A DNA stretch of 64,000 bases from Arthrobacter sp. ES3-54 (GTDB lineage Bacteria; Actinomycetota; Actinomycetes; Actinomycetales; Micrococcaceae), in NCBI RefSeq assembly GCF_029504395.1, contig NZ_JAQFIF010000004.1, forward strand, positions 372,001-436,000, given 5' to 3'. Both the position numbers and the translations under genes were made by a program. The stretch's first letter is position 1, and each line of letters starts with the position of its first letter. Under the pieces are notes generated by a model that saw only the letters and a program-made list of their open reading frames with translations, searched no databases and had not been told where the DNA came from. Shown here one piece after another: positions 48,084-53,729 of this stretch.

Positions 48084-48538
48084 GACAGGCTCCTCAACCC
48101 GAGACCATTTGCGAATCCCCCCAAGAGATCCCATTTGCTGATCTTTATCGAATAGTGTCCCCAACTGAATCGTTTGGCAAGGTCAAATTTTAAGCCCCGT
48201 CCCCGGTTTTTCACGGGATTCTCCCAGCTTGAAGCCGCATAATGCCCTTTCGGGACAAACTTCGTGGAACTGCCCGGGCTCCCGCGGGCAGCTGCCCCAG
48301 TATTGGTCGTTTAATACCTGTTTGAGCTCGAGGAACCACCTGAAATTCGGTTTAATTTACTCGCCTTGGACGTCTGTCAATGGGCCGAAAGTACCGCAAT
48401 TTCACAGGTATGGAATTTGTAACAATTGTGGACCTAGCGGCCCGCGCAGGTCGCCGGACCGCGAGTCGACTGCGACTACCGGGCAGCCCCGGAGCCGTCG
48501 GTTCAGCGCGAACCAGCCCGAGGGGCTAAAGTGGACCT
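48084..48538. other. 455-nt intergenic region between the RND operon and the leuS leader
   Basis: No convincing gene. It should hold the RND operon promoter (leftward), which I could not pin down; AT-rich stretches occur at 48130-48200 and 48305-48365. A small hairpin TGCCCG/CGGGCA lies at 48271-48290. GGTTCagcgcGAACC at 48500-48514 is an inverted repeat in the -35 region of the leuS leader promoter. Confidence 0.6.
48527..48532 (+). promoter_or_regulatory. -10 box for the leuS leader transcript
   Basis: TAAAGT ends 6 nt before the ATG of the leader peptide, so transcription would begin at or next to the A of that ATG. A weak -35 may lie at about 48502-48508. Confidence 0.5.
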
Positions 48539-48565
48539 ATGCGCGCCGTGCTCCTGCTTAGCTAG
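48539..48565 (+). CDS. Leucine-rich leader peptide of leuS
   Basis: Eight codons reading M-R-A-V-L-L-L-S then TAG, with three consecutive different Leu codons CTC-CTG-CTT at 48551-48559. A terminator hairpin follows 58 nt downstream, and leuS after about 275 nt. This is the standard layout for ribosome-mediated attenuation responding to charged tRNA-Leu. The ATG probably starts a leaderless mRNA. Confidence 0.7.
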   Translation: MRAVLLLS

Positions 48566-48623
48566 CCGCCCGGCATCCCGACGAGACCTCGATTGCGAAG
48601 AGTCCCCGGATTGCCGAGCGGCG

Positions 48624-48647
48624 GCCCCTCCATGTCGAGGGGCTTTT
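48624..48647 (+). terminator. Attenuator terminator in the leuS leader
   Basis: GCCCCTC (48624-48630), loop CATGTC, GAGGGGC (48637-48643), followed by TTTTGTG. Upstream, CCGC and CGGC at 48566-48574 can pair with GCCGaGCGG at 48613-48621 immediately before the terminator arm, a possible antiterminator element. Confidence 0.7.
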
Positions 48648-48839
48648 GTGTGTCCGGGGTAAATTCCGGGGCGCACAGCACGAAGTAACAGCAGGAGTAC
48701 CACGTACGGACGTATGGAGTCAGGGCCGGGCAACCGGCCGTGGCAGTGCAGACTTGATGGTGAACAGGCCTGGCGGCAGGCAGGCCTGAAGGTAGGCAGG
48801 CTTGGGATGACAAGCCGCATAGAACAGAAGAGGCCAGCA

Positions 48840-51365
48840 GTGAGCGTTCAGCCGGAAACACAGACCGGATCACCAGCAGCCGCGGCGGAGGGGCCCGAAG
48901 AAGGTGCCTACAGCTTCGCGGCAATGGAATCCAAATGGCCCCAGGTCTGGGAAGACCTGAAGGTCTTCACGCCGCTCGATGACGGCTCAAAGGAACGCCG
49001 CTACGTGCTGGACATGTTCCCGTATCCCTCCGGTGACCTTCATATGGGCCACGCCGAGGCATTCGCGATGGGCGACGTTGTGGCGCGCTACCTGCGCCAG
49101 CAGGGCTACGACGTGCTGCACCCGATCGGCTGGGACTCCTTCGGCCTGCCCGCAGAGAACGCAGCGATCAAGCGCAACGCGCACCCCAGTGAGTGGACGT
49201 ACGCCAACATCGACACCCAGGCGGCGTCGTTCAAGCGCTACGCCATCTCAGCGGACTGGTCCCGTCGGCTGCACACCTCCGACCCGGAGTACTACCGCTG
49301 GACCCAGTGGCTGTTCAAGCGCTTCTACGAGCGTGGACTGGCATACCGCAAGAATTCGCCGGTCAACTGGTGCCCCAAGGACCAGACCGTGCTGGCCAAC
49401 GAACAGGTGGTCAATGGCGCCTGCGAGCGGTGCGGCACGCCCGTCACCAAGAAGTCCTTGAACCAGTGGTACTTCAAGATCACCGACTACGCCGACCGCC
49501 TGCTCGATGACATGGACGAACTGCGCGGGCACTGGCCCGAGCGCGTCCTGGCGATGCAGAAAAACTGGATCGGCCGCTCCGAGGGCGCCCACGTCAACTT
49601 CGTGATCGAGGCCGACGGCGGCAAGGCCGCCAAGGATGTCACCGTCTTCACGACACGTCCGGACACCCTCTACGGCGCCACCTTCTTCGTCGTCGCCGCC
49701 GACGCGCCGCTCGCCGTCGAACTGGTCACGGACGAGCACGCCGCCGCCCTGGACGCCTACCGCGAACAGGTCAAGGCGCTGTCCGAGATCGAGCGCCAGT
49801 CCACTGAGCGCGAGAAGACCGGCGTCTTCACCGGGCGCTACGCGACCAACCCGCTCAATGGCGAGAAGCTGCCTGTGTGGGCCGCGGACTATGTCCTGGC
49901 CGACTATGGCACGGGCGCCATCATGGCCGTCCCGGCCCATGACCAGCGCGACCTCGACTTCGCCAAGACCTTTGACCTGCCCGTCCGGGCAGTACTGGAC
50001 ACCGGCGAGGAAGACCCCGCGGCCACGGGCATCGCCACCTCCGGCGAGGGTACCCTGATCAACTCCGGCGGCCTGGACGGGCTGCCGAAGGCCGAGGCCA
50101 TCCCGGCCGCCATCGAGATCCTGCGTGAACTGGGCACAGGCGAGAAGTTCGTGAACTTCCGCCTGCGCGACTGGCTGCTCAGCCGGCAGCGGTTCTGGGG
50201 CACCCCGATCCCCATCATCCACTGCCCGGCCTGCGGCGAGGTCCCGGTCCCGGACGATCAGTTGCCTGTGACCCTGCCGGCGGACCTGCGCGGCGAAGAC
50301 CTGTCCCCGAAGGGCACGTCCCCGCTGGCCGCGGTCGAAAGTTGGGTCAACATTGAGTGCCCCAACTGCCACGGCCCGGCCAAGCGGGACACCGACACCA
50401 TGGACACGTTCGTGGATTCCTCCTGGTACTTCCTGCGCTTTGTCTCCCCGCAGTACACCGAAGGCCCGTTCGATCCGGAGAAGATCAACGACTGGATGCC
50501 GGTTGGCCAGTACGTGGGAGGCGTGGAGCACGCGATTCTGCACCTGCTCTATGCGCGGTTCTTCACCAAGGTCATCCACGACCTTGGCATGATCGACGCG
50601 GACGAACCGTTCAGTGCGCTGCTGAACCAGGGCCAGGTGCTCAACGGCGGCAAGGCCATGAGCAAGTCCTTGGGCAACGGCGTCGACCTCAGCGAACAGC
50701 TGGACAAGTTCGGCGTGGACGCCGTACGCCTGACCATGATCTTCGCCTCCCCGCCGGAGGACGACGTCGATTGGGCGGACGTATCGCCGTCCGGTTCCGC
50801 GAAGTTCCTGGCCCGCGCCTGGCGCCTCGGCCAGGATGTGACGAGCGCACCCGGCGTCGACTTCGCCACCGGTGACCGTGCGCTGCGCACCGTCACGCAC
50901 CGCACGATCGCCGATGCGCAGGCCCTGCTGGACAACAACAAGTTCAACGTTGTTGTGGCAAAGCTGATGGAACTGGTCAACGCAACCCGCAAGTCCATCG
51001 ACAGCGGTGCCGGCGGCGCGGATCCTGCCGTCCGCGAAGCCGTGGAAGCCGTTGCCGTCATCCTGAGCCTGTTTGCGCCCTATACCGCCGAGGACCTGTG
51101 GAACGTCCTGGGGCATCCGGCCTCGGTCGCCAACGCCGGCTGGCCCACGTACGACGACGCCTTGCTCGTTGAGGACACTGTCACCGCTGTCGTCCAGGTG
51201 CAGGGCAAGGTGCGGGACCGCCTGGAGGTTTCCCCGGATATCTCTGAGGGGGATCTTCGCGAACTGGCGCTGGCCTCGGAAAATGTCCAGCGCGCCCTCG
51301 ACGGCCGCGCCCTCCGCACGGTGATCGTGCGGGCGCCTAAACTGGTCAACATCGTCCCGGCCTAG
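48840..51365 (+). CDS. leuS: Leucyl-tRNA synthetase
   Basis: Charges tRNA-Leu. 841 aa. Class I signature HMGH in [17 protein letters not shown], the editing CP1 domain with [20 protein letters not shown], and the KMSKS variant in [14 protein letters not shown]. The Cys pairs CERCGTP and CPACGEV are Zn-knuckle-like. GTG 48840 is preferred because GAAGAGG ends 6 nt upstream; an in-frame ATG at 48807 would add 11 residues. The first roughly 30 residues are low-complexity. Confidence 0.97.
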
Positions 51366-52889: not shown

Positions 52890-53729
52890 TTACGAGCTAG
52901 GCGCGGTTGTGAGGCCAAGCGTCGTTTGCAGCGTAGCCGGCGCGGTCGCGGGCGCGGTTGTCGGCCCGAGGGCTGGCTCGGTTGTTGGCGCGGGCGGTGA
53001 AGCGGTGGTTGGCTCGGTTATTGGCGCGAGGGTTGGCGCAGTGGTTGGAGCGGTGGTTGGCTCGGTTGCCGGCGCGGGCGGTGGAGCGGTGGTTGGCTCG
53101 GAGCCCGGCGCTGTGGTCGGCCCGGGGGCTGGCGCAATCGTCGGCGCGGCCGACGGCGCGGGAGCCGGCGGGTTAGCTGGCACGCCCGTCGGCGCGGGGG
53201 CCGGCGCCGTAGTTGGCTCGGGGGCTGGCGAGGTAGTTGGCTCGGGGGCCGGTGCGGTTGTCGGCTCGGGGGCTGGCGAGGTAGTGGGCTCGGGGGCCGG
53301 TGCGGTTGTCGGCGCGGGGGCCGGCTGATTCGGCTTGATGGTGTAACTGGGCTGCGGGCTCGAGCCGTTGACCCAAAGGGCTGCTTTTACTCTGTGGGCA
53401 GCGCCGGGCTCCAGCCACCAGAACACCTGGACGTTGCAGTGGTATACAACCGTGAAATTACCGACTGCGCCACTGGGTGGAACCGAGTGAATCGACGTGG
53501 CGGCCGTCTGGGTGGTCCAGATGAAATTTTGGTCGGCCCTCATTCCTGCGGTGCCATCAACCGTCACATGCGCTATGCCGTAGAGACCGTGCTGCGGGCA
53601 GAAGCTGCCGTCAACGGATATGTTGACGATCTGGGTTGAGGTAGCTTGCGTTGTGTCTGCCATAGCAGGCGGGGGCAACATAGTGCCGCCAAGAGCCACG
53701 ACTACCGCAGGCCCAAACAACCACTTCAT
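52890..53729 (-). CDS. Secreted protein with a Pro/Thr/Ala-rich repeat tail
   Basis: 279 aa. Signal peptide (residues 1-24, cleavage likely after AMA), a globular N-terminal domain of about 110 residues with two Cys (DGSFCPQHGLYGIAHVTVDG, VVYHCNVQVFWWLEPGAAHR), then about 140 residues of repeats based on APAPEPTTSPAPEPTT. No LPXTG motif or C-terminal membrane anchor, so it is released or held non-covalently. The globular domain is unassigned. ATG 53729 has no strong SD. Confidence 0.8.
   Translation of the reverse strand: MKWLFGPAVVVALGGTMLPPPAMADTTQATSTQIVNISVDGSFCPQHGLYGIAHVTVDGTAGMRADQNFIWTTQTAATSIHSVPPSGAVGNFTVVYHCNVQVFWWLEPGAAHRVKAALWVNGSSPQPSYTIKPNQPAPAPTTAPAPEPTTSPAPEPTTAPAPEPTTSPAPEPTTAPAPAPTGVPANPPAPAPSAAPTIAPAPGPTTAPGSEPTTAPPPAPATEPTTAPTTAPTLAPITEPTTASPPAPTTEPALGPTTAPATAPATLQTTLGLTTAPSS
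52905..53330 (-). repeat. Pro/Thr/Ala coding repeat array
   Basis: About 425 nt of degenerate 12- to 24-nt units encoding APEPTTAP and APEPTTSP variants. The block at 53205-53320 is the most regular, with nearly identical 48-nt units, and is the part most likely to vary in length. Confidence 0.8.

Follow-up and report, generated by a model that had tools for sequence, protein, structure and literature searches.

The leuS gene of Arthrobacter sp. ES3-54, which lies in a stretch of 64,000 nucleotides (the window), appears to be preceded by a leucine-sensing transcription attenuator acting through two touching hairpins, the first of which (hp1) would be the antiterminator. Comparison of related leaders and modelled RNA folds lead us to favour this reading with moderate confidence. 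The two hairpins are both conserved, covary and adjoin each other without any common base. All parts of the element lie on the forward strand. A -10-like box, TAAAGT (48527-48532), ends 6 nt before the ATG of a leader open reading frame (ORF) of eight codons plus TAG (48539-48565), which reads ATG CGC GCC GTG CTC CTG CTT AGC TAG, encodes MRAVLLLS and has its stop codon at 48563-48565. Judging from this box, transcription most likely starts at or next to the leader ATG, giving a leaderless transcript. The regulatory Leu codons CTC CTG CTT occupy 48551-48559. Hairpin hp1, placed by RNA folding at 48565-48622 with the core GCCGC/GCGGC, is a second hairpin between the leader stop codon and the terminator that the first-pass annotation of this DNA had overlooked, and it is the proposed abutting antiterminator. 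It starts 5 nt past the last Leu codon, at the final base of the leader stop codon. The predicted intrinsic terminator (48623-48647), identified from the sequence, the fold and a terminator scan, consists of the stem GGCCCCTC/GAGGGGCT and TTTT; its inner stem is formed by GCCCCTC at 48624-48630 and GAGGGGC at 48637-48643, followed by TTTT at 48644-48647. The gap between the two hairpins is 0 or 1 nt, depending on how the closing G-U pair is counted. The remainder of the leader (48648-48839) contains a ribosome site before the GTG at 48840, where leuS, the gene that would be regulated, begins.

The product of leuS (48840-51365, 841 aa) is a normal bacterial leucyl-tRNA synthetase (TIGR00396 leuS_bact, 961.9 bits for a cut-off of 548.4), whose closest relative, from Arthrobacter sp. 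SO3, is 95% identical. The first-pass annotation had described the TAAAGT box, the ATG at 48539, an ORF with three consecutive Leu codons (LLL), the TAG at 48565, the hairpin with TTTT at 48624-48647 and the start of leuS at 48840, and direct reading of the window sequence showed all of its coordinates to be correct. The terminator scan recovered the same hairpin; as it returned 2 terminator-like sites per 1 kb compared with 1.2 in shuffled sequences, the terminator by itself proves little. No Rfam family matched the window at the gathering score, and a search of 48500-48900, T-box included, gave no match up to an E value of 5.

We collected 278 leuS loci. Of these, 80 belong to the closest relatives (chosen as such by design); a family search of 149 genomes contributed 70 and a class search of 148 genomes contributed 128. 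Six loci with less than 250 nt upstream were dropped, leaving 272, near-duplicates included. A short ORF with LLL was present in 112 of the 272 loci, and in 99 of these a TANNNT box precedes the start codon by 5-9 nt. When the reverse strands of the same loci were read as a control, six LLL ORFs were found and none had the box, indicating that the leader as a whole is not a product of chance. Relatedness inflates such counts, dereplication being only a partial remedy, and absence at a locus means absence by these criteria. Structures were counted on 98 leaders (the 99 minus L103) and on 75 representatives of these at 80% identity. Among 28 newly fetched loci of the genus, some from repeated species, 27 had the pattern, while the remaining one (L304) had Leu-Val-Leu with the other parts present. 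Leaders such as MRAVRLLLSEPR were found in other families; this exact peptide occurs in eight genomes of the set, two of which contribute to the 48-sequence alignment described below. In one family (f7), none of the 11 loci read had an LLL ORF with the box. We also built a covariance model from the leaders, which matches the sequences used to build it by construction. In the genome of ES3-54 it found one strong place, with an E value of 2.1e-14, the next being 0.7 (150 of 9119 candidates scored). Of the 70 family loci it matched 46, and of the 128 class loci 53. When 118 genomes of the class were searched, 76 gave one or more matches, some of them at places other than leuS. Reading 24 further leuS matches of the model showed LLL in one (L103) and a leader cut by the contig end in another (L137); the other 22 had short ORFs whose Leu codons number one to three, in most cases two. 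The first-pass annotation had read the element as a leader peptide with Leu codons, apparently leaderless, followed by a terminator and leuS. Conservation in many actinomycetes, which extends to its position, codons and structure, supports this, a leaderless start being the most likely; the Leu run is retained, together with the covarying hairpins, in the relatives where that annotation had asked for it.

The Leu codons and the stop codon have preferences of their own. Of the 75 representatives, 64 use CTT as the third Leu codon, compared with a CTT share of 2.8% among 1560 Leu codons counted in leuS itself at the closest-relative loci with the leader. This rare codon thus stands at the last regulatory position (48557-48559 in the window), where Leu is also retained when one codon interrupts the run; the eight leaders with such a single interrupting codon keep Leu at the first and third places. 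The stop codon follows after one more codon in 34 of the 75 representatives and three codons later in 31. Longer hp1 stems were associated with later stop codons (Spearman 0.50 over the 75 representatives, relatedness not corrected).

The spacing of hp1 proved largely uniform. It starts at +14 from the third-last Leu codon, that is 5 nt past the last Leu, in 76 of the 98 leaders, and the spacer between the last Leu codon and hp1 measures 3-5 nt in 93 of the 98; starts were searched between +8 and +19, beginning at the last Leu codon. In 82 of the 98 leaders, 0-1 nt separates hp1 from the terminator. An hp1 stem of at least 5 bp combined with a gap of 0-1 nt was found in 62 of the 75 representatives, compared with 9.9% after shuffling the stretch from the Leu codons to the terminator; adding the start at +14 left 49 of the 75 compared with 1.0% of shuffles. 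When the hp1 core was looked for at fixed positions, all five pairs were formed in 58 of the 75 representatives at +14, and in at most 19 at any of the nine other offsets. The core paired only slightly better with its own partner than with permuted ones (4.39 versus 4.24 pairs, sd 0.04), because it is nearly invariant.

Covariation was examined in an alignment of 48 sequences, consisting of the window and 47 of 64 references, all 64 of which had been selected for an hp1 of at least 5 bp and a gap of 0-2 nt, a choice that biases the percentage of pairing and, to a lesser degree, the double changes. In this alignment 94.3% of cells were paired, and 13 of the 17 pairs showed double changes (86 such cells), distributed over eight of the ten pairs of hp1 and five of the seven pairs of the terminator. 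None of 500 shuffles reached any of the five measures of the pair count, and slid versions scored far lower. In a permuted-partner test both hairpins reached z values of about -20, which are circular in part, the arms having been chosen as pairing. The terminators themselves differ in their U tracts: in most Micrococcaceae of the set, as in the window (48644-48655), the tract is limited to four U and continues with GTGTGT or GCATGT, whereas many terminators of other families carry five to seven U.

We then asked what a stalled ribosome would do to the terminator. Equilibrium folding of the complete leader was uninformative as an exclusion test, as the terminators of Escherichia coli trpL and leuL also remained at 0.85-1.0 in the stalled state. 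In its place we folded an incomplete transcript that still lacks the terminator 3' arm and ends with the terminator loop; the RNA was left free to pair from 13 nt past the start of the first regulatory codon onwards. With the ribosome stalled in this way, the terminator 5' arm was paired upstream with a mean of 0.017, exceeding 0.5 in one of the 98 leuS leaders, so that no base-pairing antiterminator is predicted. In the six E. coli controls (leuL, trpL, thrL, hisL, pheL and ilvL, with what we take to be their regulatory codons), the arm was 0.74-1.0 paired upstream at the first regulatory codon in six of six; at the stop codon this value fell to about 0 in five of them, hisL being the exception (0.73). 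The mutually exclusive hairpins for which the first-pass annotation had proposed to fold the leader were thus not found: hp1 adjoins the terminator and takes none of its bases. When compared with permuted partners, neither terminator arm showed a preference for any partner in its own leader except the opposite arm, two comparisons with the hp1 loop having been spoiled by placeholder energies. In the predicted free RNA of the leaders the two hairpins fold together (mean P 0.955 for hp1 and 0.945 for the terminator). The Leu codons of the window lie upstream of hp1 in its fold, with weak local pairing only. They can pair over 11 bases with AGCAGGAGTAC at 48690-48700, and a similar helix is seen in an Arthrobacter subgroup. 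This helix was rejected as a general part (mean z of -0.22 over the leaders; p of 0.245 for the window); p was below 0.05 in 14 of 43 Arthrobacter-like leaders and in seven of 78 others.

A switch can be pictured from these parts. The ribosome would load at the very 5' end of a transcript that in this strain probably starts at or next to the leader ATG. While waiting on any of the Leu codons it would stand just before hp1 and leave it folded. The last base pairs of a terminator form within the exit channel through which RNA leaves the polymerase. A second helix would have no room there, so that a folded hp1 adjoining the terminator foot would hinder termination, and leuS would be transcribed. 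When charged tRNA-Leu is plentiful, the ribosome would reach the stop codon, in or just past the 5' arm of hp1, and melt it; the terminator would then close and leuS would be turned off. The helicase site of the ribosome is about 11 nt from the P-site codon. At this distance, a ribosome whose A site holds the third Leu codon would just touch hp1. Once at the stop codon, it would open 5 nt or more of the hp1 arm in 72 of the 75 representatives, and the whole contiguous 5' arm in 58. Intact with the ribosome on Leu and broken once it has passed, hp1 would thus be placed as an antiterminator should be, and as it has no base in common with the terminator, abutment suggests itself as the way in which it might stop the terminator.

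A similar layout was found before other genes. Besides matches falling in leuS loci, we read 20 weaker matches of the covariance model. Ten were upstream of citramalate synthase (cimA), with Leu and Ile codons, and ten upstream of ilvB, with Ile, Leu and Val codons; one of the ten cimA proteins was tested (TIGR00977, 551.5 bits for a cut-off of 450), as was one ilvB protein. The cimA leaders (L347-L352, L355, L356, L360 and L361, around position 208 after orientation) have a hairpin and an abutting terminator. Over the 20 leaders the gap to the terminator was 0-1 nt in 18 and -1 in two, hp1 started at +10 to +16 depending on the codon triple chosen, and in the stalled state the terminator arm was little paired upstream in all 20, the highest value being 0.28. 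Among 31 ilvB loci, 21 had a candidate leader and ten had none; the gap was 0-1 nt in 17 of the 21, in a search for hairpins made near the terminator, which favours small gaps, and hp1 started at +10 to +19. The ilvB gene of ES3-54 itself (L364, contig C1, just before 513169) is among these and has a candidate leader of 28 codons with Val-Val-Leu-Thr-Lys, a hairpin at +14 and a gap of 0. The covariance model did not report this leader and so lacks sensitivity for the wider class. By analogy, these cimA and ilvB leaders, that of ES3-54 included, also favour the abutting model at leuS. It is possible, though we hold this more tentatively than the proposal for leuS itself, that actinomycetes share one modular attenuator for leuS, ilvB and cimA, made of codons, a spacer and a hairpin that blocks the terminator by touch without a common base. 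Among the papers listed in our literature search we saw no attenuator of cimA.

Several observations weigh against two touching hairpins as the switch. Many leuS loci lack a detectable element (24 of the 70 family loci and 75 of the 128 class loci, a few of the latter incomplete). A footprint of the size seen in toeprints covers the hp1 core at the third Leu codon, mean P(hp1) being 0.67 with the ribosome at the second codon and 0.17 at the third; with hp1 covered this early, the model needs the shorter helicase distance. The steric step is deduced from general polymerase geometry, and among the papers listed in our literature search we saw none demonstrating steric hindrance by an adjoining helix. 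A milder objection comes from the at-stop state, in which the terminator 5' arm pairs upstream with a mean of 0.31, exceeding 0.5 in 18 of 95 leaders; this signal is in the wrong direction for a classical switch as well. Pairing of the Leu stretch with the hp1 3' arm of the same leader is slightly stronger than with permuted arms (z of -3.28), at -6.4 kcal/mol compared with -16.6 kcal/mol for hp1 itself, which is a hint of an alternative structure or merely of a common base composition. The same test gave other weak signals, for the Leu stretch with the region past the terminator (z of -3.19) and for the whole ORF with the hp1 3' arm (-2.83), the region past the terminator (-2.63) and the hp1 5' arm (-2.49). 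Finally, two adjacent hairpins could stack and help termination. If hp1 were a pause or stacking hairpin of this kind, it would slow the polymerase for as long as the ribosome takes to arrive and aid the terminator by coaxial stacking, and a stalled ribosome would disturb it. The joint folding of both hairpins in the predicted free RNA would suit such a role, as would the toeprint-sized footprint, which covers the hp1 arm with the third Leu codon in the A site. However, at the helicase distance used above the 5-nt spacer would keep hp1 folded as long as the ribosome is on the Leu codons, and passing rather than stalling would open it; we regard this explanation as unlikely.

A classical attenuator, in which the stalled ribosome allows an antiterminator to take terminator bases so that the two hairpins are mutually exclusive, seems to us unlikely to a slightly greater degree. 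The leader has the right parts in the right order, one to three extra pairs could by eye join hp1 and the terminator foot in some Streptomyces-like leaders, and published work points the same way: in the available text of Seliverstov et al. (PMC1262725) the leuS leaders of Streptomyces are labelled classical, with an antiterminator marked, and mutually exclusive structures are described for ilvB1 in the accessible part of PMC13236596. The folding results argue otherwise, since stalled leuS leaders do not sequester the terminator arm as all six E. coli controls do, and since in the permutation test the arms had no preferred partner besides each other. The distance between ribosome and polymerase might also matter, a ribosome near the stop codon preventing the terminator from forming and hp1 merely isolating the leader. 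Terminators a few bases past a gene are repressed in E. coli, according to the accessible portion of PMC4824070. Such an effect would, however, give more readthrough at plentiful leucine, the wrong direction for a synthetase, and would leave the fixed spacer unexplained, making it improbable in our view. The least probable explanation, to which we give very little weight, is that there is no regulation, with a fixed terminator after a leaderless mini-gene and leuS transcribed from a second promoter. The segment 48648-48839 could hold another promoter, the scan having covered the sigma-70 consensus only, but the conservation of Leu codons, spacing and paired hairpins before leuS, and of Ile, Leu and Val codons before ilvB and cimA, speaks against it.

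The idea of leuS attenuation is not new, and the element of the window is a further member of a known switch. Attenuators of leuS were predicted in 2005 for Streptomyces coelicolor and S. avermitilis (Seliverstov et al., PMC1262725, as far as its available text goes), and in 2021 LeuL2 of S. lividans was reported as a leaderless LLL leader, MRAVRLLLSEPR, with a terminator before leuS (PMC8079986, accessible part). The window fits a leader-peptide attenuator in the broad sense, with an ORF of Leu codons and a predicted intrinsic terminator before leuS, and also the Streptomyces type, with an LLL leader, a hairpin, a terminator and, judging from the -10 box, a leaderless start. It has in common with the latter the gene, the Leu-run leader peptide, the hairpin and the terminator, as well as, probably, the leaderless state reported in S. 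lividans. Its leader is shorter, with eight codons and a stop codon overlapping hp1, and whereas the Streptomyces attenuator is called classical in the part of PMC1262725 available to us, the hairpins are predicted here not to compete for bases. The E. coli attenuators leuL, trpL, thrL, hisL, pheL and ilvL likewise combine an intrinsic terminator with a leader peptide that contains regulatory codons; they differ from the leuS leaders in that the terminator arm is predicted to be sequestered on stalling, and in their predicted free RNA a hairpin arm contains the first regulatory codon or has it at its edge, while the Leu codons of the window precede hp1.

The ilvB1 leader of Mycobacterium tuberculosis and the ilvB leaders of Streptomyces resemble the window in their branched-chain codons, hairpin and terminator. 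For ilvB1, the accessible text of PMC13236596 describes a leader RNA in which replacement of the LVVI codons abolished induction of a reporter, and proposes an antiterminator that forms on stalling and is masked by a ribosome at the stop codon. As far as this source could be consulted, both the reporter data and the proposed masking agree with the direction of the switch proposed here. Compared by description, ilvB1 differs from the window in gene and codons, and its structures are stated there to be mutually exclusive. The LEU element of actinobacterial leuA also has a Leu-run leader peptide, but its Leu run is said, in the available part of PMC1262725, to pair with the leuA ribosome site; the matching helix of the window is weak, and a terminator is present. 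Neither an abutting, non-overlapping geometry nor a fixed spacer was seen described among the papers listed in our searches, which is weak evidence of novelty as most subscription papers were outside its reach.

Should the proposal hold, antitermination would not depend on hairpins competing for bases; it would be enough to place a helix against the terminator foot and a ribosome against that helix, and such switches could be searched for by a simple rule (a 5-nt spacer and a gap of 0-1 nt). Attenuation would also be extended to citramalate synthase. If the modular design is true as well, an untranslated leader would be read through, the opposite default of the trp attenuator. Codon changes in the ilvB leader of S. 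coelicolor were without effect, as reported in the accessible part of PMC1262725. The abutting model may bear on this null result and on its contrast with the effective changes in M. tuberculosis ilvB1 (PMC13236596, available text).

Outside this locus, an ORF on the minus strand of the window (52890-53729) has a signal-like N-terminus followed by a long low-complexity stretch of Pro/Ala/Thr repeats.

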